Shown: one piece after another, positions 18,148 to 59,920 of the stretch
Layout: every line of letters starts with the position of its first letter
Position numbering within the stretch: the stretch's first letter is position 1
Assembly (NCBI RefSeq): GCF_910592395.1
Contig: NC_088314.1
Location: forward strand, 992,001-1,056,000
Origin: Lineus longissimus
Taxonomy: Eukaryota; Nemertea; Pilidiophora; Heteronemertea; Lineidae
Direction of reading: 5' to 3'
DNA length: 64,000 nt
The notes under the pieces: generated by a model
What the model was told of the DNA's origin: nothing
Databases searched by the model: none
What the model saw: only the letters and a program-made list of their open reading frames with translations
Position numbers and translations under genes: made by a program

Positions 18148-21100
18148 ATGAAGGTGTTGGTTGTGTTGACAGCATTTGTTGTTCTGGTGTCAACAAATAC
18201 AAATTTATTAGTGGAAGGTGAGTAGCCTAATCAAAGTAGGCCTAGCCTACTAGTTGTCAAAAAAACCCATTTGAACTTTGTTCCTGCTGATGCCGATGGT
18301 ATGGTTCGCGCACAACTGATCAATCTGCTCACATAACTGAGTTGGCAAATGACATTGCCCACCTAATATGATTTACCTCATTTGCTGGCTCTGTCTTTGT
18401 TAGCGGATTGGTCAGTTAAAAATAACTGCGTGATCTGTACAGTCTCGTCCCGGGGTCGGCATATGCGGGACCGAAGGTGAAGTTCTTATTAATTGTTTTA
18501 TTCACAAGAAATCCAATGTGGAGTGTTAGTCATTTTAAGACAATCTGCTAAGATCTAGTAAGGTTCAACAAACAATCGTGTCAGTCAGATGTTGAAATGA
18601 TGATGATGTTGTTTACAGGCAAGGACAAATTATTAACCTATTTATTAATATTCATCAAGCTCATCCAAACAGACTACTTCGTCGACACTCTCTGGCGTAT
18701 AGAAGTAAACATAGTCAATGTCTACTCTGAAAAGTATTGGTGTCGTTAGTTTGGATTAGACTGTCAAAGACATGATAGACTCCAACCTGAAAACTATATA
18801 TACATTTGAAAATTTAAATTTTAGCCCAGCTTCAGGAGGGTGAGTAGGTGGGCAATGTAATGCCTCAAAAGACATGAAAAAGGTGGCATACTTTAGTATA
18901 GGCTTCTGTACAGCGGAGATAGCAGCTTGCTTGATTGTTGAATTATAGGGGTTAAATTAGCAGGCTTTTTTGGGCTTCGGCTGAAGAATTCTGCTCATTG
19001 TGCATCACCATAGGTGTTGTATAACTACTTATGCATGTGTATGATTGGTTAGGAGGGGACAAGAACACCAGAAGCTTGCTGCATCTTTGTTGTGCTTAGT
19101 GAATGATTGTTGTGTATTGTGTTGTGCTAAGAGTATATTCCCCATCAAGCCAAGCAACTGTTGAGAAAAATGCTGCACTGAATGTGTGGTCCTGTCCATT
19201 CTCCCAATTCATTCTTATTCTTCTGTTATCTAGGCCAGACCAATCCCAACCTGATCTTAGCTGGTAACCGTACGTTGACAATTCATTATGTCATGGATAA
19301 GGAGAGAGATTCTCATTTCTTGCTTGCTTTATACCCTCCTATCATTATCCCTTGAACTTATGCTCTTGACTCCTTTTTATGCCTTGTAGATAAAAATTTA
19401 GTTCAATTCTACTACAAGTTGATTCTGTGCCTCTGCAACCATCCTGTCACGATACCATGTACACTTATTGTCCTCCATTTGTTGTGTAGCTTAGCATTCC
19501 CGTCGCTTATACATGTATCCTCCATACCTAAAAGACTGTTTCAGATAATATACACAGTCATGTAGATTTGACATGCATGCTGGAGTCGCTTTGAGTTTCC
19601 TGTGCTGCAATCGCTACATTTTGTTTACATTTCTGTCCTCTGTTGCTTATTTGGGTGCTTTTGATGTGGTTGCCTTCTAGCAAGCATTGTGGGCTGGGGA
19701 GTATGGTGGCCTGGTTGTTAAAGTGCCTGGCCTTTGACCAAGCAGTCGTGTGTTGTATCCCTTCTGAGGTACTTAGTTCTTTCCTTTGAGAGCTCGAAGG
19801 TTAAGTATTAATGCTTACTCCATGAGGCTGCTCCTAAACATTCCCAATAATATTAGGCAAAGCACATTGAGCAAGTTCTTGTCTGTGGAAAAGTGCTATA
19901 TAAGAAATCTTTTTTCCAGCTTTTACCTACCATACCCATGCTACATGTATCGGTCATTAAACTGACCATTCCCATCTTGAGGTTCAAGCTATGCTAGAGT
20001 GTTAAGGAGACTGCTTCTCCAGCTATGTCTTGGGGGAGGTGTCCATCATACATTGGTTTTTGGTAACAGATTACCGTGGTATGACCGTGTCTATGGGTCC
20101 TGCAGTGTTCATTTTGTACGCCATGTACCGGTAAATTAAAAATATCCCATATCTTGTGTGTGATGCTTTATCACAAGTACTTCTATAACTGAAGAAGTTG
20201 TTCTTGGGCAAACTGCAGAAATTGAGAGTTAACCACATCACCTGCCGTCGTCACGGTCGTAATTTATGAACAAGATAAGAAATGTTTTAAATTATTTCAT
20301 GGTTGTTTTCTCCAGTGTAATCTTCTTTATTGGGTCTTTTCAGAATGTCCAAATTTGTGGGCGACGGGAGACCAGACGTGTTATAGATTTTTCCAAGATG
20401 TCAAAAGGACGTGGGCTATGTCGAAAAAGTATTGTGAGGTGCGTACATGTAGCCGAGATGTTGCTCATTCATCTGGTCTGAAAGGCCAGTAGACCTGCAG
20501 CTTTCAGTCATATCATTTTATGAATAAAAGAAATTAAGAAATGTTAAGATATTACTCAAATGAGAACATGAATTCAAACACGTTACTTCCATATTTTTCA
20601 GGATATTGGTGCTGCGTTGGTGAGTATCAACACTGAGAAGAAACATCAAGAGGTGACAACATGGTTGGGGGCTAATGATGGCCAAAAGTAAGTCATTCTC
20701 ATTCATTGGTTGGTATCAGAACAGATTATTGACAATATGAGGAAGCAAGCAGAGAACAGATGGTATCTGCCAGTTTGAATAGGTTGAAGCCGATTGAGAT
20801 TGTAAGCATGGTACAAGTGTGTGTATCTGCCAGTTACTGTGTGAACAGTTTTAAGCCAATTGGGATAGCAAGCAAGGAACAATTGTGTTTATCTCCCTAT
20901 TACTGTCTGAGCTGATTGAAAGGTGTCTTTACCTCGTATTGGACCTATAACATGTAAAATGGAGGACGTCCACTCGGTTCGCTGGTGTTCACTTGTGTGT
21001 TTATAAGTTAGACTAGATGTGTAATTCTGCCGCACTGACTCAATGACCTTATAGAATGATCTCATCTCCTTCAGCCTTGCTTGGTACACGAGTGGGAGGC

Positions 21101-24100
21101 GAGACACAGCTGAAACAACCTCTCCTGTCTTCTACTGGGAAACACTAAAACCAAGGGCGGCTGTCAAGACGTTCTTCTTCTGGACGGATCCAAAGAATAA
21201 AGATAAACCAGAACCAGACACGATTATAACGTATGTGACAAGTGGTAATACTCGTGGCTGGGATCTGACAGATCCGGCGCAGGCCAAGGCATTTATTTGT
21301 GAAAGTCCTCGCTCCGAGGTTCAGAAGCTGACAGCAGACGACCGAGATTTTAGTAAGTTGATATCGAGAGTTGGCAATTATAGATCCGGGTTTGCCGAGA
21401 TGAGATGAAGGGTTACTGTTACAGTAAACGCTTCACCACAATCCACCGCAATATCGGTCGGTGTGATGATGCACTCTCCGCTCGACCAAATTTTGTTCTG
21501 GCGTCGTCATGACCCAATTTTCTGCATGGAATGACAGTTGACACCAACATGAAAAAAGCTCCTAATTTAATCTTTGAGAAGATGAATTCAATTAAACTTG
21601 TCATTATTTTCTTTAGCATATGGTCAATCCGACATTGGAAATATTGAGAAGGGACCACACTTCATCCAAGAGCCGCCACGATCTGTAATCTTTGCTTCAT
21701 CTGAGGCGAACAAACGTGTCTCTTTCGAGTGTATAGCTGAGGCAAACCCACTAGCTACATACCGATGGGTTAAAGAAGAAGCAAAGGTCGGCAAGACGTT
21801 TGAAATCACGGCCAGCAAGAAGTACACTTTATCGAATGGAAAACTTACGATACACAATCCTCAGCGTACGAAAAAGGTTGATGCAAGTGATCCTGATGCA
21901 GTGACGGACACTGATGTAGGAATATACCAATGTGCCGCCACAAATGCTTTTGGCACCATCCTGAGTAACCGGGTCAATTTTGACTTTGGCTGTGAGTATG
22001 AAATCATTCGGGCTGGGTGTCGGAGGGTTTCAGGCATTGCAATGTAATGTACATTCAGTGGTTATTTCTTTAGCCTCAGAGTCTGGGCTTTACATGAATC
22101 AGATATCTGAATTTATATATTCCTTCTTTGCAGATATCAATGACTTCAGTAAGACGAAGAGAGATCCGATCCAGGCCAGGCTCAATTTCGACACAGCCAT
22201 TCCATGCAATGCGCCTCCATATTTCCCAAGTAAGTTGGTCAGATTATTCTATGAATAGGAATGGAAACTTGATGACGTCAGCGATAACGACTTGGACAAT
22301 GACGCTAATTTGTCAAATCAAGTTTCTTCCAGAATGTTGACGATAAATAATAAGGTTTTTTTTCTTCCAGCAATCCGTTACAAGTGGTACAAAGATGACC
22401 CACTGAACTACATCCGTACCGACCAGAAGCCATACATGTTCATTTCCCAGAATGGCAAGCTCTACTTTTCTCGTGTGAAGAATGATGATGCAGGAAACTA
22501 CTTCTGTATTGCGTCTGTGCCATTGCCGGGTTTCCAAGATGGCAAGACAAGCATGCCAATAGGACTCCTCATTGGAACCGGAGGTGACGAACGAGCACCG
22601 CAGATTCATACTGATTTCCCAGCCATCTATCCAGGCAACCCTAAGAAAGGCGACAATGTGACCATTGAGTGCTTTGCCCTTGGAACGTAAGTCTTGCCAC
22701 TTTTCATCTTCTTACGCCCCTTGTCAAGCAGTCTTATTCGGTGCGTTTGGGAGATAAGTGGTGGTCCTGGCGTACACCTTGAATATTTCACGAGACAACT
22801 CTAGTTTAGCGATGGGACGTTGCTCATGATTGTTTGTTCGCACAAGATGATATGGTAAATTTTGAGAATTAACGAAAGATTGGATGAAAAATATACAATC
22901 CTTTCACAGATTCGATTAGAAATATTCAGTACGTAATCTTCTGGTGTATTGTTTTCAGTGGTGATCTGCAATACAGCTGGGGTCGTGCCAACAATCAGCC
23001 AATGACAAAAAGGGTCTCCTTCATGGACAATAACCGAATCCTGAGCATCAACAAGATTGAACTGGAAGATGGTGGTGATTACACGTGCAGGGTGTCGGCA
23101 ACTGGAGGTCTTGGTGGCACTGGCAGCGACTCTAAGACAGTCAAGCTGGATGTCCAATGTAAGTGAAATGAGGAACGTATTTGCAGTGTGTGCAATTAGG
23201 ACATTGACTGAATTGGAGAGGTATTGGAGTGACCACAGAGCTGAGGAGCCGTATGGTCTCTAAACGTTGTCTTTAGGATTTGAATCCCGTGACTGAACCC
23301 GGTGCTGCTTCATGCGTCCATACACGGTAAACAGATGTCTTATCCTCGACTGAAATATACCATCAATAACATTGTGAAAGAAGAGATGCACTGACACTGT
23401 AGATGATCATGCTGCCGTTCAGACTCTGGCTTTAAAATTAATGAATTTTGCTGTTAAACATTGATCTTTTTCCAGCAATCCCATTCTTCACGAAACCTCT
23501 GAAAAATCATCATGTTGACGTTGGAGCCAAGTTCACCCTGCATTGCGAGGCAGACGGTAAACCTGAAGTGAAGTACAAATGGTACAAGAATGGGGTGCTG
23601 TTTGATAATAGCACGCTGGATACTGAGGACATGGCACGTATCACATTTGATGGTACCAGAGTAACATTCCAAGCGGCATCGGCAGAACGTGACAACGGGA
23701 TGTATCAGTGTGCGGCCTCTAACCAACGAGGGGTGTCCTACAGCACTGCTCAGGTCCGAGTACTTTGTGAGTATGAAGAACATTTCCTTGTTATGTACTG
23801 GCAATTGACACGTATATTCTAATCTAAGTAATCCAGTGAATGATTTTGTCCAAGCATACATGTAGATGGAGCAGTGTCTTCCCATAAGCACTGTGGAATT
23901 TGACAAGGGCGTTGCTGGCACAGGCTGTCCTTCTACCAAGATAGGGGTCTACTGGTCATACAATGCTGTCCTTCTACCAAGATAGGGGTCTACTGGTCAT
24001 ACAATGCTGTCCTTCTACCAAGATAGGGGTCTACTGGTCATACAATGCTGTCCTTCTACCAAGATAGGGGTCTACTGGTCATACAATGCTGTCCTTCTAC

Positions 24101-27100
24101 CAAGATAGGGGTCTACTGGTCATACAATGCTGTCCTTCTACCAAGATAGGGGTCTACTGGTCATACAATGCTGTCCTTCTACCAAGATAGGGGTCTACTG
24201 GTCATACAATGCTGTCCTTCTACCAAGATAGGGGTCTACTGGTCATACAATGCTGTCCTTCTACCAAGATGGGGGTCTACTGGTCATACAATGCTGTCCT
24301 TCTACCAAGATAGGGGTCTACTGGTCATACAATGCTGTTCTTCTACCAAGATAGGGGTCTACTGGTCATACAATGCTGTCCTTCTACCAAGATAGGGGTC
24401 TACTGGTCATACAATGCTGTCCTTCTACCGAGATAGGGGTCTACTGGTCATACAATGCTGTCCTTCTACTAAGATAGGGGTCTACTGGTCATACAATGCT
24501 GTCCTTCTACCAAGATAGGGGTCTACTGGTCATACAATGCTGTCCTTCTACCAAGATAGGGTCTACTGGTCATACAATGCTGTCCTTCTACCAAGATAGG
24601 GGTCTACTGGTCATACAATGCTGTCCTTCTACCAAGATAGGGGTCTACTGGTCATACAATGCTGTCCTTCTACCAAGATAGGGGTCTACTGGTCATACAA
24701 TGCTGTCCTTCTACCAAGATAGGGGTCTACTGGTCATACAATGCTGTCCTTCTACCGAGATAGGGGTCTACTGGTCATACAATGCTGTCCTGCTACCAAG
24801 ATAGGGGTCTACTGGTCATACAATGCTGTCCTTCTACCGAGATAGGGGTCTACTGGTCATACAATGCTGTCCTTCTACCAAGATAGGGGTCTACTGGTCA
24901 TACAATGCTGTCCTTCTACCAAGATAGGGGTCTGCTGGTCATACAATGCTGTCCTTCTACCGAGATAGGGGTCTACTGGTCATACAATGCTGTCCTTCTA
25001 CCAAGATAGGGGTCTACTGGTCATACAATGCTGTCCTTCTACCAAGATAGGGGTCTACTGGTCATACAATGCAGAGGACATTGAACGAGTTGTGTTTTGA
25101 TGAATGTGTCGTGAATTGACCGTTGCATTGATTTTTCAGCGTTTGCTCCATCGTTTGCCAAGCGTCCGATGTCGCCCATCACATATGCTGCTATGGACGG
25201 CAAGGCTACTCTCATCTGTAACCCAGAATCTGCACCAGAAGCAGTCAAAACATGGTACAAGGACGGCCAGCGTATGTCCGTGTCGGGGGAACTTGCTGCC
25301 AGGATTCATGTGTTAAGGAATGGTAACTTGGAGCTGACCAAGATTGTCGCGGAGGATCAAGGAAGTTATATGTGCATGGCAGAGAATAGCTTGGGAAAGG
25401 CTAGCAACACTGGCTCTCTGCTTGTATTGTGTAAGTATGCCTTCATAAATGATCTGCTCGGTCAGAAATAGGCTCTGGGCTCCAGGCAGATGTTTGCTGT
25501 TCCGTTGAGGTGATTGTGCACAGAGTTACCATAGACGGGATGTACGACAGGTAACATTGGCTAAGAATTGATCGGGGGACATTCACTTCAGAACATATCG
25601 TTCTCAAGCAAAGGCCTTCTGAGTTATTTTGAGAAGATTTCATCATGAAGAGAAGAACTCCAGTGTGAAATCATGATTATTAGACCAGTTCATCTACTTT
25701 TCTACTCGACCAAAATCACTTCTAAGCAACTTCGCACCAACTCAGGAAACTTATATAACTTAAATAACCGTTTCCTGGGGGAAAACTCCATTCTATTTTT
25801 GTACACAATATCAATGCTTTCCCTTTCTCCATTCTTAGCAAAATCTGTGATCACTGTCAAGCCATTGAGTCAGATCGTGCGTCAAAATGAGTCTGTCCAA
25901 CTCACATGTGAGGCTTATGTCGATCCCTCGCTTGACTTCACCTATGTGTGGGAACTGAATGGCTTCCCCATTGATCTTGACTTCAATGAGGACTGGAGGT
26001 TGAAACAGTATCGCAACTTGGACAGGTATAAAAGGGTAAGCTCTGCTTGCATAAGTCATCCAACTTTCGTCAGCTTTTTTGTGTTTTCTTGTATTTAGAT
26101 GGTTTGTAACAGTTTTCATGTGTGAACCATTCAATGAGAGGGAGCCATCCATGTTGAGATGGTAGACCTTTTGATGAAAAAACGGTTGATATAAATACTT
26201 ATGTCAATATTTCCTTTGTCTTAGGGTACTGGTGCAGCATGGGGTGATCTCTTTATCCATAACATCACATATAAAGAGGCTGGGATCTATAAATGCATCG
26301 CTTTGACACCACAGGATGAGGCAACAGCAGAGGCCAATGTGACTGTAATAGGTAAGCTTCAACACTTTATAGGCCCATGTTTTGATATTTTAGAACTCCG
26401 CCCCAGTCGACACTGAGGTGGTTGGGTTTGATTTCTGGTCAGGCCATTGATGCTGATGGCAGGACCTGTACAAACGGTGTGTAACCCGCCATAATGTGTT
26501 CATCTCCCTGAACATCCGGGCATCAAGTTTCTACTTGGGCTCTGTTTAAATTCAAGATGGCGCCCGATTGGTATTTCATGCGTTACGTTTTATTCTAGGT
26601 GTTCCCGGTGAACCTGCAGGCCTGGTTGGTATCGAGGGCAGTCTCACATCGTCGTCAATACAACTGACCTGGTCAGCTGGAACAAATCACGGAGCCCTAC
26701 TCACAAGCTACACGGTGGAGGCACACTCCAATCTCAACCCTAAATGGCATGTTGTCAAAACCAACATTTGCCCCTGGTATGGTGACCCGACATCACTGAC
26801 AAAAGGTGAATGTCGAGAGATGACGCCACTGGAAAAGGAGGAAAGTCGACCTGGTGAGATATATTTGAATGTTTTGTTAGATGTGTTCCGTTCGACCTAT
26901 AGGTCATCATGTTGGCCACTTCTTCTACATTATGAGTTGACGCTATTGGACCAGTTTAGGAGTGCCTGAGCAAAAAGATCATCTTGCGTGTAATGGCTGT
27001 GTCTGCTGATTCATTCTCATTCAATGCAACATGACCAAAATTGGGTTTGTGGTGTCTGCTGTACCTGTCAAATAAAACACATTTTTTGGGCATTTCTTTT

Positions 27101-30100
27101 CCAGTAAAATAAGAACATGCGTCCTCGAAAATGTTCCCAGCGTCACTGAGACGAGCGTGGTCCTCCTGTGCAAGTCTGGAGTGAACCACTCGACAGATGT
27201 TTCCTCTAACTATAAATGCTTTCCTCTTCCAGAACTCCTCTAACTATAAATGCTTTCCTCTTCCAGAACTCCTCCAGGAGAAAGATCGACTCAAAACAAC
27301 TGTGACGGGACTATTGGCATATAATTCCTACATGTTCCGAGTTATCGCCTATAACACGTATGGTTCTGGAGACCCAAGTCATCCTTCTTGTAAGTCTGCA
27401 TTTACTCTGTATATGCCATACTAGTAGTTTACTCTCGTGATAGTGCCTGAAGAAGGCCCTTATTTAGGGCCGAAAATTTGAACTTTTTGTATGACTTCAT
27501 CTCAATACATATCATGTGTTCATACAAGGTGCTGTTTATTTATTGGCTTCTTGTAAGTCCGATAAGATTTCTTCTTGATAAGTTTAACTTGTTATACAGG
27601 AATCTTCTTGATTGGTTAGTGGGTTAAAGTGGTTACCATCCGCTTGACAGGTCTCAACACAACATGCTCTCATTTCTGACTGAATTCTTCTCAGAACTAG
27701 AAGGAATGAAAACCTTGCTCTTCATGAATACAAGTCTCACCTAATCAAGCTAACTGTGTGGAGGTCTGTGACATTGGGGGGAGCTTTGAAAACATATCTG
27801 AAAGTGAGAAATTGGAAAGGCATTGAAAAAAAAGGAGTAGCCTAAAGTGCTAATCTCCTGGCAGAAGGGTGTAGTCACAACCAACCTGTACAATAATTTG
27901 TTGTCTGCTTCTTTCTGCAGCGATCTATACCACCAGGCCTGACAAGCCTTTTGTCATCCCAAGGAATCTTGGTGGTGGAGGCGGGAAGGTAGGGACACTC
28001 ACCATCACATGGGATCCTCTCCCGGTGAACGAGCACAACGGACCAGGTCTCATGTATCGTGTCTTCTTCAGAAGGGCGGACATCAGCAATCAAGATAAGG
28101 ATACAAAGGTAGGAGCAGAGGAGTCTTCTAATCAAAAAGGAGTTCTCCCACACACACACCTAAAGCGGTGTCTACTCGCTCCTGACTCATCATCAGAAAG
28201 AACACGGCCAAAACTTCACCTGCAGCTTGATGTGGAGCGGGGTCCTGGGGGCTTACATCCACATACATCGGCCTGTTTCCCTCTCAGTATCACAAACATC
28301 TCCGGGCCTTTCTAAGTCCTTGACACGGCCTGTTGCTGACGGTCTCTGATGTGGACAGAATGCTGCAAAAACATGACAACCCAAGCTCACTGTTGTTGAT
28401 AAATTGTTATCAATCTTTCGATTTGATAAGGGAAATCTTGAGGCTGAAATAGACTTGTCCTTTTTCATTTGCCATGTGTTAAGTGGTTAGAATGAATTGG
28501 AAATATTTGAAATTTAATAAGCAAATGCAGTGTCTCATAGTGATTCTGTTTATTTCCAGGTTGAAGTAAAACATCCCACAGCAATGTATACAGAGACAAT
28601 TGGAGCCCTCAACTTCTACTTGCCATACAATGTGAGGATTCAGGCATTTAATGACATGGGGAATGGACCCATTTCTGAGTGGGTGCAGATTTACTCTGCT
28701 GAAGGAAGTGAGTAAAAAAGTTTCTGATTTATGTTGAAATTGTCCCGACCCGTTAGGTCATATGGTATTAGTACCGGGTATTACAGTTAACTTCTTTATT
28801 TTTGAGGGCCAGTCAAATACGGTGCCCAAAGCTTTAAGTCAACCCAAAGAATAATGCCATTTGTGTTTCAATCTAAAATGTAATAAAGGGCATAGGGACT
28901 TCTTGTATTGTATGGTAGAAGACTGTCCCTGGTTCTCTTCCCATGATTTTAGAAGAATTTGAGTAAACTGGTAAGATTTTTGTTTTCTGTGGCTTTGTAT
29001 AAAAGTATGAAAAATGAAGACTAGTACGGAGTAGTCAAGAAATGAATTGCGTGGGGAGACTGCTAGTCAGCATCATCTCAACGTTGACCTCAACCCTTCT
29101 GCTGTAGCTGTCTTTCTTGTTGTGATGTATTCTTTATGACTTTCATTGTCTTTCAGTGCCTGTTGCAACTCCGATGAATGTCCGTGCACGAGGTTATAAT
29201 TCGTCTGCGCTTGAGGTCCTCTGGGACATGGTGCCTGACACTCGCGAAGGTGTCAAGGGCCGTGTCATGGGATACAGGGTACGCATAGACTCATATGACA
29301 ACAATTATTTGGGCAAAAAAAGAGTAACACCTCTGTCATCACTCCTACAGATTTCCATGGCATGGTGCTTGAAACACGAAACTCATGAGGTGGTGTGACT
29401 GTGAGGATGTCGTTAGAATCCGAGGGATCCATAGCACTTGATTCACTCAATGCAATGTACTTTGACTTGAACAACCACCATGGAAAAGTTAATATCCAAC
29501 TTCTCTGATCATTATATTGCATGCTTCCCTTGTTTTCAGATTAACTACTGGAAGAAGGATATTGAAAACGAAATGGATGATTACATCCGGCAGACTATCC
29601 TAAACCAGACGGACCGTGGCAAGATCATTGGTCTCCGTCCCAACCAGTATTACGAGCTGAATGTGATGGTCTTCAATAATGCCGGCAATGGGCCCAAGAG
29701 TGCTATGCGATATGAGAGGACTTGGAGGAATGGTAAGTCAGGCATCGCGACATATTTCATTGACCAATCTGAGTAAGCTTAAAGGGAACTGGAACCGCCG
29801 AGCGATTTATTCAACTTTTCGACTTTCACCGCCCGAGAAAGTCAAACTTCCCACTTCCTATTCGAGTTCAGATTTGTAGCTCCGCCCCCAGTGCCCGAGC
29901 ATGCACAGTTCAATTTGTTATTATTGAGAATCATGTGAGAATCACGTGAGTCATGCGATCTTTCATTCATGAGTTTTCGTAGTAAATTCCATAGTAGTGA
30001 CGTCACTCAATGATTGACAGCTAGGCGCCATGTTTCATTCATGCCTTGTTCTGATCACCCGATACGCGGGAAATGAAAACGAGGTCATACGAACTGGCTT

Positions 30101-32023
30101 GGCGGTTTCAGTTCCCTTTAACATCGTGCTGAAGCATTTCAACCTTGACCTCATTTCCGTGGTCACAGATGTCTAACTCGAAAAAGTTTCACTGATAGCG
30201 GCACGCAAGAATGAAGAATGAATCCCAACAAAAGCCATTTTGTCTTTATATTTTAGCTCCTCAAGATCCACCAAGGAATGTCAAGGTTAAATATTTGACA
30301 GACAAATCGATCAGCGTTCACTGGCGAGGAGTTAGTATTTCTAATAAGGAGGAACCACTAGAAGGTTACATTGTAAGTTCATCTTCACAGAGTACAGATA
30401 CAACCTTCTTAACTTATTTCAAAGAGATGGTGTTCACAAACAACTATTGAACTAATTTCATCAAGCAATCTCGAATTCCTTGAGCTTTAATTCCATGGGT
30501 AGTGATTTAGATTGGTACAAATGTTTGTTTCAATCTTTGAATCTCGCATTGAACAGTATTGTTGTATTCATGTTGAGTGAAATCCTGCTGGCTTTGTTCC
30601 TTTAAGCTTATCCCTAATGGATTAACCCCTTGCCGTATTTTTAGGTTCGTTACTGGCCTGCTGGAGAATCAATGGTAAACGCCATTGATCATTACGCAGG
30701 GAAGGTAGTGGATTCCGTTCTGACCAATCTGGAGCCTGCCCCGACGCGTTACTATCTGCGAGTGCTAGGCTACAGCCGCGGAGGATTTGGCAAGATGAGC
30801 TCACCTATCTTACAGCTCCAAATAGGTCAGTCCATTCTTAGTCAAGTTAACTTCTCATGTCCTTTCTGTTCATGCCATCTCGTCTTTGCCAGTCTGGTTG
30901 GCCAATGGTGCTCTGACATCAAGGATGTTATCTCTGTGTTGATCAATGCTCTCATAGTAAACACAGAGTCACTCAAGTCAAGCTCCAACCCTGGCCCTAT
31001 GTGTCACCCTGGCCCTAAGTGTCACCCTGGCCCTAAGTGTCAACCTAAGTGTCACCCTGGCCCTAAGTGTCACCCTGGCCCTATGTGTCACCCTGGCCCT
31101 AAGTGTCACCCTGGCCCTAAGTGTCAACCTAAGTGTCACCCTGGCCCTAAGTGTCACCCTAAGTGTCACCCTGGCCCTAAGTGTCACCCTAAGTGTCACC
31201 CTGGCCCTAAGTGTCACCCTAAGTGTCACCCTGGCCCTAAGTGTCACCCTAAGTGTCACCCTGGCCCTAAGTGTCACCCTAAGTGTCACCCTGGCCCTAA
31301 GTGTCACCCTAAGTGTCACCCTGGCCCTAAGTGTCACCCTAAGTGTCACCCTAAGTGTCACCCTGGCCCTAAGTGTCACCCTAAGTGTCACCCTAAGTGT
31401 CACCCTAAGTGTCACCCTGGCCCTAAGTGTCACCCTAAGTGTCACCCTGGCCCTAAGTGTCACCCTAAGTGTCACCCTGGCCCTAAGTGTCACCCTAAGT
31501 GTCACCCTGGCCCTAAGTGTCACCCTAAGTGTCACCCTGGCCCTAAGTGTCACCCTAAGTGTCACCCTGGCCCTAAGTGTCACCCTGGCCCCAAGTGTCA
31601 CTTGAGAAATGTCGACCATTATATGTGTCAGTGATGTGACAAGGTAATTTCAGATAATTGTACCTCCAAACCAGATAGGTTTCGGCAGATTGAGTCGTTT
31701 TGCCATGGAAGTAATTCATCTTGTAGAAAGCTCCGAAAGATGACCTCCAGTAGAAGGCACTCGGTCAGCCGTACACAGTGACATGGACTGATCCCATACG
31801 AGCTGACTAAAGAACAATGCTACAACATGGCTCAGAACAATCAGCCTTTTTGGTGTCATGTGGTTATTGTCAAACACTTGTAATCATTGAACTTTTGCCT
31901 GTATTTTCAGGTCCTGGACCATATTTATACGTCAACCCGAAGCCAGGATCCGCGGGGCACCTGCAGCCATGCCTTTTACTTATCTCCTTTTCTATCTTGG
32001 CACTTTTCAAATATCTGTTATAG
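18148..32023 (+). CDS. Cont: Contactin with C-type-lectin-like domain, GPI-anchored cell-adhesion protein
   Basis: Neural and septate-junction type adhesion receptor of the Ig superfamily, held on the outer membrane leaflet by GPI. Coding exons: 18148-18217, 20344-20438, 20602-20687, 21075-21352, 21617-21991, 22134-22229, 22371-22686, 22959-23158, 23476-23766, 25140-25430, 25839-26035, 26225-26351, 26599-26853, 27267-27389, 27921-28108, 28560-28707, 29157-29278, 29540-29732, 30257-30372, 30645-30825, 31911-32023. They sum to 3,861 nt (1,286 residues plus stop) with every phase matching. Residues 1-22 are a signal peptide (MKVLVVLTAFVVLVSTNTN). The lectin-like domain covers about 24-176 (CPNLW, TCYRF, KYC, AFICE). 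Ig1-6 cover about 177-807, with YQCAA, YFCIA and YTCRV strands. FN3 1-4 cover about 808-1249. The C-terminus is a GPI signal (LLLISFSILALFKYLL). The lectin domain lacks an evident WND calcium site and one usual cysteine, so sugar binding is doubtful. Drosophila contactin shares this unusual architecture. Confidence 0.95.
18218..20343. other. Contactin intron 1 (2.1 kb)
   Basis: No exon recognised. Contains the SINE at about 19694-19908. The rest is unremarkable AT-rich intron sequence with several AGGCCT-rich short motifs near the donor. Confidence 0.6.
19694..19908 (+). mobile_element. tRNA-derived SINE
   Basis: The head resembles a decayed tRNA: GTGGCCTGGTTGTTAAAGTG as box A, then GACCAAGCAGTCGTGTG and a worn box B (GTGTTGTATCCC). 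After a tRNA-unrelated body it ends in AAAAGTGCTATATAAGAAAT, a tail type (AAAGCGCTATATAA) common to many animal SINEs. It lies in sense orientation in contactin intron 1. Confidence 0.6.
23925..25071. repeat. 41-bp minisatellite, 28 copies
   Basis: Unit CTGTCCTTCTACCAAGATAG plus 21 more bases (ending CATACAATG), repeated head to tail. The array length of 1,147 bp is 28 x 41 minus the single-base deletion visible near 24557. Copies differ at only a few positions (for example CCGAGATAG, CTAAGATAG), so the array is very homogeneous. It fills most of the contactin intron between the Ig4 exon (ends 23766) and the Ig5 exon (starts 25140). Open frames through it are repeat artefacts. Confidence 0.97.
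27203..27270 (+). repeat. 34-bp tandem duplication carrying a second 3' splice site
   Basis: A 34-bp stretch spanning a polypyrimidine tract, the acceptor AG and the first exon bases of contactin coding exon 14 is duplicated in tandem. Acceptor AGs are at 27231-27232 and 27265-27266. Only the second keeps frame. Use of the first would read GAA CTC CTC TAA and stop at once. Confidence 0.9.
29779..30121. mobile_element. TTAA-flanked MITE in contactin intron
   Basis: A 343-bp element with terminal inverted repeats of about 21-25 bp. The left end is TTAAAGGGAACTGGAACCGC and the right end is its complement with one mismatch. TTAA lies at both boundaries (29779-29782, 30118-30121), suggesting a piggyBac-type target. 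The interior is non-coding. It lies between the FN3-3 exon (ends 29732) and the FN3-4 exon (starts 30257). Confidence 0.75.
30989..31600. repeat. 12/18-bp composite minisatellite in the last contactin intron
   Basis: Alternating units AAGTGTCACCCT (12 bp) and AAGTGTCACCCTGGCCCT (18 bp), about 40 units in 612 bp. The first copies carry variants (TATGTGTCA, AAGTGTCAAC). Because both unit lengths are multiples of three, frames stay open on both strands. On the plus strand it reads as Cys-His-Pro-Gly-Pro-Lys repeats, in frame with the preceding contactin exon if the intron is retained. Confidence 0.97.
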
Positions 32024-35441: not shown

Positions 35442-35552
35442 TTACTTCATTGAGCAGCTCCAGTTGATTGGGTTGTACTTGAGCAGCTCCTCCTCGTGTC
35501 TCCAGTTGAGGTAACGACTGCGGCGGTTCCAGTTCCATTGCTCCTCCATCAG
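35442..35552 (-). other. Alternative terminal exon C (distal)
   Basis: A 111-nt exon after a CTTGCAG acceptor (35553-35554). Thirty-six codons start LMEEQWNWNRRSRYLNW and end KYNPINWSCSMK before TAA at 35444-35442. It has the same length and phase as A and B, but its centre is the most diverged. Confidence 0.8.
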
Positions 35553-38500
35553 CTGCAAGTAAGACCAGAAACATATAAGACATTGCACATGCGATGATTC
35601 AACCCAACCTCGGCTCGATGGGAGTCTCTCTGTGGGATTTCGTCAGGCACTAATAGTTATGCAATCAAACTTGTGCGTCGGTGTGAAGTGGTAAGCGACG
35701 ATGTGTCTTTGTCTCCAGTCCTTGACAGAGTGCTCAGGGGACAATGCGTTAAACCGAGTGAACACGGTGTCGTGAGTAATAAGGGTTTGATTGTGCTGAC
35801 GGACTCGGAGTGGTGTTCGTGCAGAAGAGATCAACTACCATTTTAATACCCCACGTTGAAGATCCCGCTCACCCCTCACTTTTGATATTCCAATTTTGTT
35901 TAAATGTGGTGATTGAGTAAATCCTGTTCAGCTGTGGTGACTGACAGATACCATCATATTGATTATCTATTTCTACCTGGCTACATGCTGTTATGGCCAA
36001 CCTGTTGCATGGTAATGGTATTGATGGCATGTTGGTTGTGAGGCAGTTATTGATACGGACTACAGCGATGACAACGACGATTAAAGTCAAAACAACACAC
36101 GACGAAAACTGAGGAAACTGACTCATATTGATTGAATATTGATGAGGTGCACACTGGACAAAATTAAAAAAGTAAAACATGTTTTACAAGTTAATGAAGG
36201 GTGTCCTGTTGTCCAAGCAACTGTGTTGGTGCGCTTTTGTGCTACACAATAGAGAGGTTGAAAAAAACGAACGCAACGTCACGTAGGTGAAACCGAGTCC
36301 CACATAGGTAACAAGGGAAAAGAGAGCATGACAGTTTTCTCAGCCTTCTATTGGGTAGACGCTCAGCCAAACACACACACTCTTTGGACAACTGGACACC
36401 AACAAAATTAGCAGACTTCACGAACGTAAAGGTGGGACGTCACAACCCGATGTTTCACCTTATTTTAATGTTCGTGCCCAGTTTATAGGATTGTATTTGA
36501 TAATTTCTCTTTCATTTGCTATCATGGCGTCGTGTGCTTGTCGATTATGTGCCCACTTCTGTTCCATGAGCTGGGGGAGGAAAGGTAACAGTTAGGGGGA
36601 GGACATGGTGGAAACAATGGGGCGGGAACTACGTTCAGGGAGTGAGGGTTTGGGTGGAATGCTTCATTAGGGGAGAAGTGCCGGTGTGGGGGTGTGGGGA
36701 GTCAGGGAAATTGTGGGAAGGATGTGCGATGACTGAGAACATAAGTTTCCAAAGTAACAATCCTGAAAGATAAAAGTCGGTAGCGTTCTAAAGTTAAAGG
36801 ATTTTGAATAGCATTTCATTAGAAATGGATAGCGTTTGGATAGTTTAACATGCTGAGAAAATATGGTGTCCCAACCGGGTATGATTATGTGAGCGAATGG
36901 CTCCAGTTTATTGGGTTGAACATTGTCAGTTCTCTCTCGTAGCGTATCTCTCGTCTCCTGACTCTCGCCGTATGCGCCCAACGGTCCTCCATCAGCTGAA
37001 AACATCATCATCAACCAATCAAAGAAGATATATAGTTTGTTACTTAAAACACCCTTGAAAACGTCCTGGACGTGGGGAACGTCAGCTCCGGTGTAGGCGA
37101 AATGGGACCTCACCAATTCGAATGGAGACGTAAACTCTCCGTCCACGCAACTGGACAAACGCCAGGCATAAATAAAGAGGCAATCTGCTTTCCAGGCTCA
37201 TCAAGAGCACAGACAGATTGAGACAACAAGAACATCGATACAATATAGACAATCCCTTGGCTTCGGTTGGAAGGCAGCTTGAGAGAAGGTAGAGACAGTA
37301 CACTGGGGCAAATATGAATAACATGGTTTCTTTCCCACCAGGCACTGCAGTTCGACGTTCGCACCGACCCGATAACCTACCGATTTATTCGCATCTCTAA
37401 ATGTCTTCATTTGGTTGAAATGATTGTGATAGTCTTGTGAGTCCTTCACGATGTCTTGTCGGTCTTTCTGCACCGCCTCTTCGGACTCCCTCACGCGCGC
37501 GTCAAACGTCTGCCGGACTTTACTGTCTCGGTCAGACATCTGTTGTTTAAGACCTTCTCGAAACAAACGCCTGAAAAAATAAAAAAAAGATGATTGCGTT
37601 TATATAGCGTGTCTCGTCAGTCTCAAAACAAAAACAAGAGACCATGCATCAACGTCACAGCGGCGTGTGCGCCGTCACAAATCTGTCCTGGTGACAACAT
37701 ATGTGTGACAAGCCCAGTGTGTCTTGAGGACAACCTGAATTCGTTCTGTCACAAGCCCACCCGCCAGCTGGTTCTCTTGAAGACAAGCCGAATTTGCCCT
37801 GTCACTATCCCGCCACTCAATCTTGAGGACAACCCGAACTCGTCCCGCCAAAAGCCTAGTTTGTCTTGCCGACGACTACGCAGGTCTCCATACATTAGTC
37901 TAGATGTTCAAAGTAGTGTTCCTTACACCATGCAATTCATTTCTATGGTAATGAGTACAGAGTACAGACTGCCCCGAGATATCATAATCATCAACATATA
38001 CCACAATCAGAGTGATCCACACCACAGGCAATAAGACCAAAATGATTAAGCGTTACACCTCATAGTAAAGACTTCTTGTAAGCCTTTAGCCGCAGGGGAC
38101 AACCCACAAACCAATTAAAAGTAGAGCCCATGGATTTAACTGTATTAGATCAGCAAAAAAGAACTGTTTATGCGAAGCATTCTGGGTCATCACGGTTTTG
38201 GAAGCAAATGAAAGCATGAACCTCCGTCAAACCTTCAAAAGCTATTTTATGATTGACTTCGAAAGAATCGGTGTCCCGTGTATCGTTTGTCCCCAATCAA
38301 TATATATCGCATGTTAATCTGTCATGTCCTCGTTTGGTGTTCTTTGATAAAAGGACATGGTGATTTAGTGGATTATAAGTAGACCGAATCGACATGTGGC
38401 ATGATATGTCACCGCTGCTGGTGACACGATACTAAGTATTAGCTGTTGATTGGTGCAATGTTGTAGCGAAGTATAAGTGATAACATAACTGTAGCATTCA

Positions 38501-41412
38501 CGGCGACCATTGTTTTATTCTGCGCCAAACGCTGCTTGGTGGTGCGACAACCATGTTAGGGTGTGATAAGCGTGGAGCATACAACATTGGTATTGGAAAG
38601 CAATTTCTATTTGTACGTTATTAAACTTGTTGATTATTCATCTGACGTATACTGTAAGTGCTATGGCATATTTACATCCGGATAGACGATGCTAGCATTT
38701 CATATAGACCAGCAACGCACCGGCTGAGAGTTTATATTGGAATTGATTCCTGCAAGAGTTGACGGACGGACGGGGGGGGGGGGGGCAGCTCAAAGGTGCT
38801 AGGTACTATGAACGTAAATCGATTTGCCACTGTTGCCATGCCATGGCTGTGTGGCGAGTAACGACTATGAAATCACCCCCGAATAGCAGATGAAGTTTGT
38901 ACCTAAATGAGATATATACTGATATATGAAAAGCAATAACCCGCTTTTCCGCCATCGGGTGTCCGGTCAAGAGATTTCACCGGAATATGAATAATTTCAT
39001 GCCGCAAGTATAGATTTATGCGATAGCCATTATTGTAAGTCCATTTAGCTAGAATTAGAAAATAAAACGAAGCTAACACGATAGCATTCAGGGTAACGTG
39101 CCCCATGCAATACATAAATCATACGTCAGCATTTACCAAATAATTTAGTCAAGTATGAATAATCTGAATAGGTCTTATATTCAGCCCAACTTGTCTTTCA
39201 CAAAGACCATTGAACTACCAAAGGAATCGTTCACAGGAACGAAACGTTTAAGCCTCTATGACAATCCAAATACATTTATTCATTTGCTAATGGTCAACTG
39301 AGGATTTTTATGATTGTTTTTAATGATTTGAGGCAACCTTCACAACCAGACGTAATTTACAGATTGGTTCCGATTGATTACGAAGTACAAAGGTATGAAA
39401 TGTTGTGTTTAACATAAGTTGAAGGGGTCTCAGTGATTGAAAAGACCAGTGTTTTAGGGGCCACTCAAAGTATAAGGCACTTTCCAGGGAGAACATTTGG
39501 ATGGCATTTTATGTGTGGAAAAGATCCTTGTTATACGAAACTATGCAAGATTAGTGATTTGCAGTAAGATTAAAATCCGCGAAATCGGCCATATCCGCAA
39601 ATTAGAACCATTGCACCGAATCTTCAGGATCAGCCGGCCACATCCACCAAAAAGGGATGAAGTGAACCAAACTTTCCCAATCACTTTGCCTGGCTCGATA
39701 TCAAATCTTTAGCCAAAGTGCACAACTTCTGTTAAGAAATATTGTCAACACCAAATATTAGATAAGGCAAACCAAGGCATTATACGATATAAGAAAAGGA
39801 ATGGATTTATTTATTTTAGGCTTATAATGTATTTATGTATGTTTGCCAAGACGACATATCAATGTATTCGTCTCCTCGGGGCTTGCATGAGTATTATTTT
39901 CAAAATCAATCACTCAATATTTAAAGGGGGTCTCATGTTGACCCACGAGTGATAATTGGCTGATATTTAAAACAGCACCTTTGATTTTATGGCTGAAATC
40001 ATTATTTCAAATGCTACTCGAGGGACAAGTTTCAATTTATAGCAACAATGAATGCAAAAACGCCATAAAACTCCATCTTGACCCTCAATGTATATTGACA
40101 TTGCTCAGCTTCCAGAAAACGCGCGTTGATGTGTAAAATTCTGCCGTGTGCAACTTTTGCCACAAGTTAAGTGGTACCGGTAGGGCGAGCAACCCTGTCT
40201 CCTGAAATATTACGGGCTCGGGATATGAAAAGCGGTAGGGGGAAGTTCTCTTGTTCACGTATCTACCCTCCAAACATCTTTTGGTACGTCAAAGCAGAAT
40301 CGTATTGCCTTCGCTCCATACACGAATCAGAAACGGCTAATTCGTTGTCGCCAAGACGTCCAATGTCACCAGAGTCGAGGTCTATACCCACGTGAAAGGA
40401 AGAATAGAAAAAAACGGTTTGCTTGCCCAATTAGTGTTACTTCAATTTTTCACGTTGGTTGTGACTTTCCGTGCGTCTTACCTAAATAACTTTGTCAATA
40501 TTGAACCCAGGCCACTGTTTCAATAACAGTAAACCACGAACTGCTTACTATTTCCTGTGTTATGTGTGAGTTTAACCACTATTCCATAGAAGAGGGCCAG
40601 TATTGGGTAGGAGATATTGCTTAATTTCGGCAATGTTCTAGAAACTTAGAGACGAAAACGATGGGAGCAAAGAAAAAATACTCAGTGTCCTTGAGTTTCT
40701 GTTTTGTTCCTGTCACTGCTCGATACTGTAAGGACTGTTATCGGTCCTGGCTATGGTAGGTCGACTGTCCTCGAGACAAAATTGTCCCTGTTAGGATGAT
40801 TTGTCATCAAGACGAACTGGTGTTCCTCAGGACGAATTGTTATTGGGACTAATTGTCCTCAGGACGGATTGTCCTCATGATAGATTGTGCTCATGACGTG
40901 TTGTCCCAAATACGAATTGTCATCAGGTCAAGACACACTTTCCTAAGGACGAATATTGTCTTCGGGACGAGTTAATGATTTGTGGGAGACTCTTACCTGT
41001 ATATTTCTTTCTCTGCCGGTGATCCGTAAGCCCACTTTTGATACGCCGTATGATACCGACTTCTGTGCATCTTCTGCATCAAGTCACTCCGCTGGTTGTT
41101 CTCCCAATGTGGTTCGACTGTCTCCAACATGGCCGTACGCCTCTGGGGCGGCGCCGGAGCTAGAGGGTTCACTTTGGAGGGAATTTTTCTAAAGTCCACA
41201 TTATCTATTGAAGTGATTAGTCTCGGAGGAAAAGGTTCATATACTGATGGTACGTGTATGTTTTGGAGGGTTTTCGGTCTTGTCATCGCTGTCGGGACGG
41301 CAGCTATCACAGGCGGCGTACAGACATAGGAATGAACGCTCTTTGCGGGAGACGGCGGGGTGGCCACGGGCGTCCCCTTCGGGCTGATCTTTGGCAGTGA
41401 CGTGGCTGCCAT
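35442..41412 (-). CDS. Unrecognised ~238-residue protein with three alternative C-terminal exons
   Basis: Common exons: 41412-40997 (416 nt from ATG MAATSLPKISPKG) and 37570-37381 (190 nt). The second ends in phase 0 at a GTAGGT donor and can join any of three last exons of 111 nt (36995-36885, 36570-36460, 35552-35442). Each combination is 239 codons including the stop. The N-terminal 140 residues are basic and proline-rich (NPLAPAPPQRR, LETVEPHWENN, AYQKWAYGSPAEKE). The middle is highly charged and helical (LFREGLKQQMSDRDSKVRQT, ESEEAVQKDRQDI), probably coiled coil. All tails begin LME and contain a NPINW motif. No signal peptide or membrane segment. I do not recognise the family. Size, charge, short Trp/Tyr motifs and an upstream X-box would fit a ciliary or microtubule-associated protein, which is inference only. 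An acceptor just upstream of the ATG (41427-41428) implies a separate 5' UTR exon. Confidence 0.75.
36460..36570 (-). other. Alternative terminal exon B (middle)
   Basis: A 111-nt exon after a CCTCCCCCAG acceptor (36571-36572). Thirty-six codons start LMEQKWAHNRQAHDAMIANE and end KYNPINWARTLK before TAA at 36462-36460. It is homologous to exons A and C, with identical length and phase. Confidence 0.8.
36885..36995 (-). other. Alternative terminal exon A (proximal)
   Basis: A 111-nt exon after acceptor TTTTCAG (36996-36997). Thirty-six codons start LMEDRWAHTARVRRRE and include FNPINWSHSLT before TAA at 36887-36885. It is the first alternative met after the shared donor at 37381. Its NPINW codons contain an AATAAA hexamer (36907-36912, minus strand) 20 nt before the stop. 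Confidence 0.8.
37571..40996. other. 3.4 kb intron of the three-tail gene
   Basis: No exon recognised. It holds degenerate GACAA/GAATT-type repeats at 37680-37860, a poly-G run at 38775-38786, and the degenerate tandem repeat at about 40745-40975. Open frames here are short. Confidence 0.55.
40745..40975. repeat. Degenerate ~18-20-bp tandem repeat (GACGAATTGTCCTCAG-like)
   Basis: About ten diverged copies of a unit resembling TCCTCAGGACGAATTG (for example 40834-40850, 40858-40876). It ends just before exon 1 of the three-tail gene. A similar but more worn series lies at 37680-37860 in the same intron. Confidence 0.6.
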
Positions 41413-45431: not shown

Positions 45432-47197
45432 ATGAACTGGTCAGGATATCTGAAGTGGTGGTCATGTACCGCCCTGCTTGTCTGTGTCATGTTCACGCAA
45501 GTGTACGGCTTGAAACCAAAGACGGAGGAGAACTGTGAAGGTTTGTATTGGTGATTGAATCTTTTCTGCTTTGCCAGGGCCAATGATTGATTTATAGGAG
45601 GCATGACTATGATAGCCAGGGCAGGGATGGCAGTGCTGTCGCTGACAAAGTGACATCAGACATGGCACAGATTGTAAGCCACACCATCGATTTCTACTTG
45701 GCTTAGAGTGTATAGCCTGTCGTCCAGTCATCGATCGTCCAACCCCAAATAGGGTCTACAGGCCATTCTTGCATTGGTTTGATCGTGATATTTAGGCTGT
45801 GTCTGAATGGGAGGGTGTGTGAAAATACCCACGCCTGGATTTGCCGCTGTTTAAACTATGGCCGTGACTCTTCAGTTGATGCTGAAGTTGTCCCATCCCA
45901 TGTAGACTGTCTAGACTATAGGCTAACCTAATGTTCTTTTATTTCAGTATGTGTGAAGTTTGTTACCAAATTTATGGCTGGCCTTCCTGATGATGAGAAG
46001 TATAACCAAGAAAAGATTGAAAAAAGACTTATCGAAACGTGCAAGACAAAGAAAGGAAAAGATGAACGATTTGTAAGTGCATAATAGATATTGACAATTC
46101 ACATTGGGTCTCATTTATTTAGGTATAAAGCTTTGCAGGTGTTTTTAAGCAAGTAAAGAAGTCCTCAACAGTTTACAAGTAGTAAATATGTCATTTTGGT
46201 TTTGGCTCAGTAATCTTGAATGTTGCCTTTGAAGTATGTAACTGGGATCGAATTTTAGCAATTTCATGGTCAACTGGTAAGAATTTGGGAGAGGGTCTGA
46301 TCATTGTCTTGTTTTCTTTTGCCTCTCTTCTTTGATCTGCCTTAGTAGCCCCTGTTCTACCCGAGCTCTAACTTCTAGGCAATTTCATTTCATTTCAGTG
46401 TTATACTATTGGTGCTGCAGAGACCTCTGCCACTAGGATGTTGAATGAATTAACTCGGCCTGCCAGTCTAGGAATGCCTGCTGGAAAGATTTGTGCAAAA
46501 ATTAATGACAAAATGGATAGCGTCTGTGACTTGAAATATGGTATGTAGGTTTCTTTGTGGCTGGTCACTGTGAAGGCTCTACACCTGGCTGAAAGGATGT
46601 TGAGACTGTGAGTGAAGTCTGAAAAAACCATCATCACATCCACATTTCGAGGATAGATTAAGCTGCTGTGTGACTTTCCAAGATTCCAAATTTAGTATAA
46701 GGCAACAAGTACAATGGGCAAATGTTGTTCATGTCAGACCATTCTCTGTGTTTCCACTATTGTCATCCTTATGCCTTGTTGCTGTATTGTGCCTATTTCT
46801 GTCATGGATACATAGATTGTATTTGGCAACCATGGAAACTAGTAAACAAACTGCCTACTGCATTGGCTTTTGAAAGATTGAAAAGGTTTACTAGTCTACA
46901 TTGTAAGTAGCTGGAGTTCAGATCTACATGTTTCATGGCTCATGCACAACATCTAGTGTGTCACTGTCAATGTGAGTCCCTCAATTTTTTCTCTTATTTT
47001 CAGAAAAACAGATCGATTTGGCATCGGTTAACTTCAGGAAATTGAAAGTGAAAGACTTGAAGCGCATCTTATCTGACTGGGATGAAAGCTGCAAAGGATG
47101 CACAGAGAAGACCGACTACATTAACAGGATCAAGGAACTTATGCCAAAACATGATCCAGAGGCTGCAGAGAAATTACGCCAGAGGGAGGAATTATAA
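45432..47197 (+). CDS. MANF: Mesencephalic astrocyte-derived neurotrophic factor (MANF/CDNF family)
   Basis: Secreted and ER-resident stress-response protein. Exons 45432-45540, 45948-46072, 46399-46540 and 47004-47197 join in frame to 190 codons including the stop (189 residues). Residues 1-26 are a signal peptide ([13 protein letters not shown]). The saposin-like N-terminal domain follows with the conserved cysteines [29 protein letters not shown] and SVCDLKY. The C-terminal SAP-like domain contains [19 protein letters not shown] and the CKGC redox-type motif (residues 155-158), then [15 protein letters not shown]. The protein ends REEL, a KDEL-like ER-retention variant (RTDL in mammals). 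The ATG follows TCCTAAA and precedes a clear signal peptide. Family assignment is certain. Invertebrates usually have a single MANF/CDNF member. Confidence 0.97.
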
Positions 47198-59900: not shown

Positions 59901-59920
59901 ACGACGTCAAGCTGACGTGA
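53912..59920 (+). CDS. CARD-like and leucine-rich-repeat protein
   Basis: Probable cytosolic or membrane-tethered adaptor. The main exon 57747-59920 (acceptor TTCCAG) encodes nearly the whole protein. It is joined by a phase-1 junction either to 53912-53951 (MGGNLISCHGDKK, 737 residues in total) or to 56186-56279 (MAWSGVQAIPLF..., 755 residues in total). In the shorter form, residues 1-200 are disordered with RPPPKPPRMR. About 200-290 form a six-helix CARD-like region (CQDVLQQMLE, ILGQCVERGLITPETELEIM, FTEILREVPNQKHLGDLVE). About 390-685 hold around ten ribonuclease-inhibitor-type LRRs of 28 residues (LDLRLNVFGDDGATFIAEAL, LDISGNRIGDDGASILAEIL). This is the layout of NOD-like receptors with the NACHT ATPase missing; no P-loop is present. 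I do not recognise a named orthologue. The LRR call is secure, the CARD call moderate, the first exon uncertain. Confidence 0.8.
53952..57746. other. Intron region of the CARD-LRR gene
   Basis: 3.8 kb between the MGGN exon and the main exon. Apart from the candidate exon at 56186-56279, open frames are short and unsupported. No repeats of note. Confidence 0.45.
56186..56279 (+). other. Candidate alternative first coding exon (MAWSG)
   Basis: ATG at 56186 opens a frame ending SGSDTDSANGY plus one base before a GTAAGA donor at 56280. The phase also matches the acceptor at 57747. The frame stays open upstream to about 56015, so an internal exon with an acceptor near 56128 is another reading. 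Confidence 0.4.

Follow-up and report, generated by a model that had tools for sequence, protein, structure and literature searches.

The window analysed here is a stretch of 64,000 nucleotides of Lineus longissimus DNA (NC_088314.1, positions 992,001 to 1,056,000), a species whose genome measures 391 Mb, chromosome 7 accounting for 21.16 Mb of it (PMC8593623). Its minus strand carries LOC135491366, a gene in which two shared coding exons, together encoding 202 residues, are followed by three homologous terminal exons of 36 codons, each entered in phase 0 (Table 1). The tails encoded by these exons, a tail being defined as the last 36 residues, read LMEDRWAHTARVRRREIRYERELTMFNPINWSHSLT (tail 1), LMEQKWAHNRQAHDAMIANEREIIKYNPINWARTLK (tail 2) and LMEEQWNWNRRSRYLNWRHEEELLKYNPINWSCSMK (tail 3). 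The residues of exons A and B are identical to residues 1-202 of NCBI LOC135491366 isoform X2 (P0001), and this isoform is, letter for letter, the 202-residue core plus tail 3. Two sequences make up the database cluster of isoform X2, and the label X2 hints at a further NCBI model of the gene.

Table 1. Features of LOC135491366, in window coordinates; a slash marks the splice boundary
Feature	Position	Strand	Description
Coding exon A	40997..41412	-	ATG at 41412; 416 nt = 138 codons + 2 bases; donor CAG/GTAAGA
Coding exon B	37381..37570	-	190 nt; finishes the 202-residue core; phase 0 at its end, the shared donor TCG/GTAGGT
Tail 1 exon	36885..36995	-	111 nt, 36 codons + TAA; weak acceptor; 67.0 bits against the family profile
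Tail 2 exon	36460..36570	-	111 nt, 36 codons + TAA; strong acceptor; 54.1 bits against the family profile
Tail 3 exon	35442..35552	-	111 nt, 36 codons + TAA; strong acceptor; 71.0 bits against the family profile; tail of isoform X2
ATTAAA	35049..35054	-	nearest AATAAA/ATTAAA past tail 3, 388 nt after its stop; hexamer match only

Exons A and B have matching phases and GT-AG ends, as read from the sequence. An initial annotation of the window had placed a shared donor at 37381, in phase 0 after a common part of 202 residues, ahead of three last exons of equal length. Both points hold: the two upstream exons give exactly 202 residues, and every tail exon runs from a CAG/CT acceptor through an LME start in phase 0 to a TAA stop. 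The same annotation credited every tail with a good acceptor, which is correct for two of the three. Splice sites were ranked with a crude donor and acceptor matrix drawn from the general metazoan consensus, over the minus strand from 41500 to 34000 (391 AG sites and 450 GT sites). On this scale the best of the 391 acceptors is that of exon B, with tail 2 in 2nd, tail 3 in 4th and tail 1 in 106th place; among the donors, exon A ranks 1st and exon B 10th of 450 (score 6.56). The third-ranked acceptor, at 36762 on the minus strand, lies between tails 1 and 2 and is part of no family tail; its use would lead into a short unrelated frame or a piece of 3' UTR.

Additional hexamer matches on the minus strand fall within the gene. 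An AATAAA at 36912-36907 lies within the last codons of the tail 1 coding sequence and an ATTAAA at 36469-36464 within those of tail 2, and use of either would leave almost no 3' UTR. A further ATTAAA is found at 35847. Apart from the hexamer inside tail 1, neither motif occurs between tails 1 and 2.

The protein family and its predicted structure

A single-sequence protein search returned nine proteins at E <= 1 from 142 candidates, and a profile search returned 81 at E <= 0.1 from 1469 candidates. Sequences with a named source come from molluscs, annelids, nemerteans, a brachiopod, a bryozoan, hemichordates and an amphioxus, and further from sharks and rays, frogs and toads, an acoel and flukes. 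Arthropods, nematodes, bony fish and amniotes do not appear among the names of the 81, in a search of limited reach in which many rows are nameless. Members are labelled uncharacterised, hypothetical, unnamed or by tag, and LOC135491366 appears to represent an uncharacterised conserved bilaterian protein. In the part of the literature search results that was viewed, nothing concerned this gene or such exons in Nemertea, no paper was found to name any of six LOC numbers of the family, and the letters NPINW led to no title on a protein sequence.

Most members share a C-terminal signature, with (N/T)PINW falling within the last 10 residues of 65 of the 80 non-Lineus proteins; the other 15 end or diverge ahead of the tail. 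Ten of these 15 end in YR or YK, the point at which exon A ends in Lineus, which suggests that an intron after exon A is common to the family. LOC135491366 itself combines the core with a 36-residue tail that has NPINW near its end, the combination by which the family is recognised. Other species have one tail each in the proteins compared, and no second species was found to join one core to two family tails among pairs within the 81 proteins sharing at least 35% of core 7-mers. The initial annotation had proposed searching tails and core against proteomes; this recovered the core-and-tail family and the tail 3 isoform, and a search with all three tails (three proteins from 24 candidates) returned no second nemertean variant among 90% clusters that may hide isoforms.

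Comparison with Pfam (E <= 1) gave three weak, unrelated families for the window's protein, all below cut-off. Among 56 of the 81 members (25 were dropped as truncated or near copies), the trichohyalin-plectin-homology (TPH) model was matched weakly by 16 at E <= 0.1 (best 8e-5), the RIB43A model weakly by four at E <= 0.1 (best 0.0014) and the Paxillin model weakly by four. P0001 matches neither TPH nor RIB43A. TPH and RIB43A are both names of ciliary and flagellar proteins, and the matches may arise from the composition of long charged helices. There were no sequence relatives in the PDB for the full protein (E <= 5), other PDB searches giving noise-level rows only (five at E 1.4-2.9 and one at E 2.4), and the window has no Rfam match at gathering cut-offs. 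AlphaFold2, run on P0001 with 55 relatives (mean pLDDT 74.9, low pTM of 0.42), predicts an irregular region over residues 1-98, a helix at 99-123, a single helix at 132-227 and a short end, with a mean pLDDT of 98 over residues 171-220 of the long helix. Given this helix, the tail exons are predicted to encode its last ~25 residues and the NPINW end.

Family membership, age and constraint of the tails

A score matrix was built from the 65 non-Lineus tails (61 different) with (N/T)PINW in their last 10 residues and was used to scan the window in six frames. Tails 3, 1 and 2 stand out at 71.0, 67.0 and 54.1 bits against a background with a mean of -87.7 and a standard deviation of 12.9; the best other place scores -24.5. 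This gap rules out chance likeness of the three exons, and the scan holds no fourth family-like tail close to these scores. The homology of the tails put forward in the initial annotation is thereby borne out, as a profile made without them finds all three and the pairs are identical at 16, 17 and 16 of 36 residues. The 65 family tails score 60.3 to 114.9 (median 99.2), and since these same tails built the matrix, the comparison is tilted against Lineus. Tail 2 falls under the lowest of them.

Within the family tails P28, I29, N30, W31, S32 and L35 are each present in 65 of 65, and M2 (60), E3 (63), W6 (55) and E22 (61) are also conserved. Tail 2 is without the serine, and tail 3 without the leucine, that all 65 possess. 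Start and end stay in register in these tails, giving fixed ends and a variable centre over 36 residues, and among the sequences aligned this is a family-wide pattern. The shared register identifies the three Lineus exons as real family tails. Conversely, the initial annotation had taken conserved ends and differing centres as a mark of selection for distinct tails, and this argument is weakened because the 65 other tails look alike in the same respect.

The age of the duplications can be approached through codon positions. Third-position identity of the tail pairs is 13, 14 and 11 of 36, the fractions expected at random from composition being 0.26, 0.30 and 0.21, and the NG86 method gives no dS, synonymous sites being saturated. 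In every pair, positions 1 and 2 are more often identical than position 3 (42/72 v 13/36, 42/72 v 14/36 and 44/72 v 11/36; one-sided Fisher p 0.024, 0.044 and 0.0025, uncorrected, for pairs that are not independent, the first two values being modest). The introns flanking the tails have no likeness beyond shuffles in six comparisons (the observed score is equalled or exceeded by 60 to 189 of 200 shuffles), and recent duplication was rejected on the lack of residual similarity in these flanks. Of 14 well-conserved columns, defined by a single residue present in 80% or more of the 65 family tails, tails 1, 2 and 3 keep 12, 13 and 12. When tail 1 was evolved neutrally to 55% identity, at least 10 of its 12 residues were kept in 0.0002 of 5000 runs; the open frame alone survived in 0.178, so that the open frame of tail 1 is weak evidence by itself. 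Synonymous sites are saturated and the introns unlike, yet 12 or 13 of 14 family residues are kept, a combination which indicates that the three tails are, to judge from their codons and flanks, old duplicates, each constrained.

Whether the Lineus tails have evolved faster receives a mixed answer. End branches of the tail tree measure 0.57 to 0.62 for the three, as against a median of 0.16, and these long branches and the low profile scores speak for acceleration, whereas residuals from core divergence remain inside the range. The mean residual of tail against core divergence is -0.054 for tails 1 and 2, on the diverged side with 6 of 55 other proteins lower, and -0.022 for tail 3, which is less diverged; all three lie within the spread of the 55. 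The residuals of a nemertean protein (P0030, the NCBI homologue of Tubulanus polymorphus, +0.021) and of the relatives P0002 (-0.007) and P0048 (+0.036) are higher than those of the Lineus tails. Mean likeness of the Lineus tails to the family is 15.7, 15.8 and 16.8 of 36, about as far as they are from each other. The order of duplication has no resolution in a tail tree of 36 columns, and a single clade of the three Lineus tails is compatible with the data (p-AU 0.618).

The remainder of the gene was found once. A search of the genome (391 Mb, 30 contigs) with the protein carrying tail 2 gave 13 candidates, all of them scored, and located each of the five exons (A, B and the three tails) a single time, at this locus; one further row, on another contig, is at noise level (E 5.99). 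Within the reach of this search there are no tandem copies, second core or retrocopy.

Precedents and the proposed use of the tails

Terminal exon clusters of this kind have precedents. TPM1, Drosophila Tm1 and C. elegans lev-11 each have three tandem duplicated 3' exons, apparently of separate origin, and of 236 human tandem-exon substitution events half are internal, 40 N-terminal and 77 C-terminal (PMC9741552). The Lineus gene resembles the tropomyosin genes in having three homologous 3' exons that offer alternative C-termini to a long helical protein. It differs in that its protein has no tropomyosin match and in that tail use is seen for one tail, in a database model: tropomyosin is absent among the Pfam families of the window's protein (E <= 1) and of P0001, and among 25 of the 30 Pfam families listed for the 56 family members. 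By analogy, the likeness would be one of working and not of descent, and the two arrangements may work alike. Human capping protein beta, a different protein, also has homologous 3'-terminal exons as its last coding exons, with multiple poly(A) sites; homologous terminal exons have been classed as multiple poly(A) or differentially included, and of 101 counted on the X chromosome of the fly, 14 are alike in both homology and length (PMC3228551). Drosophila pip and PGRP-LC, like the worm gene, have tandem homologous terminal regions; in the two fly genes these are mutually exclusive, with competing RNA structures reported for PGRP-LC. Unlike the worm gene, pip has eight repeated clusters and is treated under UTRs (PMC9013439).

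Predicted 3'-terminal exon clusters number 34 exons in C. elegans and 41 in A. thaliana (PMC3923563). The Lineus exons share with the clusters of WebScipio and Kassiopeia a similar length, the same frame, the splice pattern and homology, and the rest of the gene is unduplicated across the 391 Mb within the reach of the genome search, as in a homologous 3'-terminal exon cluster. Examples in the portions of the WebScipio and Kassiopeia papers used here come from flies, a nematode, a plant and human, and the present case is nemertean. The suggestion in the initial annotation that the arrangement may be undescribed can thus be kept for the gene family, which appears uncharacterised, and has to be dropped for the mechanism, which was already described in tropomyosin and others. 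The kind of arrangement is known and ordinary; the gene family is unnamed.

The interpretation that we consider likely is a nemertean gene, found once in its genome, with three anciently duplicated last coding exons, each mRNA joining exon B to one of them. What follows on whether tails 1 and 2 are used, on cell-type choice and on function is inferred. In each mature mRNA the exon B donor would be spliced to one tail exon, and the same 202-residue body would receive one of three homologous 36-residue tails, each forming the end of the predicted long helix together with the family's C-terminal NPINW motif and presumably tuning what the helix end binds. A transcript with tail 3 would pass tails 1 and 2, so tail choice would be regulated. 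The choice would probably depend on acceptor strength, which is low at the nearby tail 1 and high at tails 2 and 3, in combination with 3'-end choice, either through poly(A) sites belonging to the individual tails or through stop-carrying exons that share a 3' end past tail 3. One protein with three tails is what the initial annotation had claimed, and the triplicated terminal exon, the single core and the constrained tails agree with it; tail 3 is the one seen, in the NCBI model.

The version of this explanation with stop-carrying internal exons, differentially included ahead of a shared 3' end past tail 3, is given a little less than an even chance. A donor-like AAG/GTGAAA one base past the tail 2 stop scores 6.7 on the crude matrix, above the exon B donor, so that tail 2 may carry its stop on an internal exon that is spliced onward to such an end, an arrangement for which the fly muscle myosin gene offers a precedent (PMC3228551). 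Tails 1 and 3, however, have weak donor-like sites close to their stops (best 3.8 and 3.9), and while the space between tails 1 and 2 holds no AATAAA or ATTAAA outside coding sequence, in keeping with a shared end, the hexamers at 36912, 36469 and 35847 are present and point the other way. It is unlikely that tail 3 is the only one used, with tails 1 and 2 as old duplicate exons no longer, or hardly, spliced in. Both are open, stop at the same codon and keep their conserved residues after synonymous saturation, and tail 2 has the second-best acceptor, all of which argues for use; on the other side stand the single readable isoform sequence with its tail 3, the weak acceptor of tail 1, the lowest family score in tail 2 and a divergence of both tails somewhat above what the core predicts. 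Tandem gene copies with separate last exons, or joining by trans-splicing, are named as look-alikes of such clusters in the Kassiopeia and WebScipio papers (PMC3923563, PMC3228551). For the present gene we regard them as highly improbable; as regards tandem copies, the genome search, within its reach, finds exons A and B here only, once each.

Taken as three alternative last coding exons on one core, the locus is a clear example, from a ribbon worm, of last coding exons that were triplicated long ago and have stayed constrained; the family it belongs to is nameless although its members range from acoels and flukes to sharks and frogs. As other species have one tail each in the proteins compared, the worm constitutes a natural experiment on the role of the conserved C-terminal NPINW end. 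A bolder account, quite unlikely in our estimation, starts from a tail of fixed length, 36 residues, across Bilateria that exon triplication would have set free in ribbon worms. The long-helix protein, possibly a ciliary one, would then be docked by its three tails onto three different partners or cell types, and the 3' UTRs of tails 1 and 2 would be very short, their poly(A) signals lying in the last codons.

Other features of the window

Several further coding features lie in the window. On the plus strand, an exon at 46976-47194 encodes an ARMET C-terminal domain (Pfam PF10208, E 1.3e-25) and marks a MANF/ARMET-like gene. The region 20200-30500 of the same strand contains an immunoglobulin domain recognised by Pfam (23445-23819) and several more immunoglobulin-type exons by eye, in an exon order which we take to be contactin-like; a downstream piece at 26550-26966 has no Pfam match. 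A 726-residue open frame at 57740-59917 (plus) has leucine-rich repeats (Pfam LRR_6, E 2.4e-24), and a 356-residue open frame at 61613-62680 (plus) has no Pfam match at E <= 1. On the minus strand, a FYVE zinc finger (PF01363) at 1637-2384 is split over two exons, of which 2136-2384 scores 49.2 bits and 1637-1978 scores 24.6 bits, under the cut-off of 27.8; a 1086-residue open frame without a Pfam match lies on that strand at 6122-9379. Two minisatellites are also present, one at 23924-25072 (28 copies of a 41-base unit with 98% matches) and one at 30988-31601 with 18/30-base units, where long open frames on both strands are probably meaningless.
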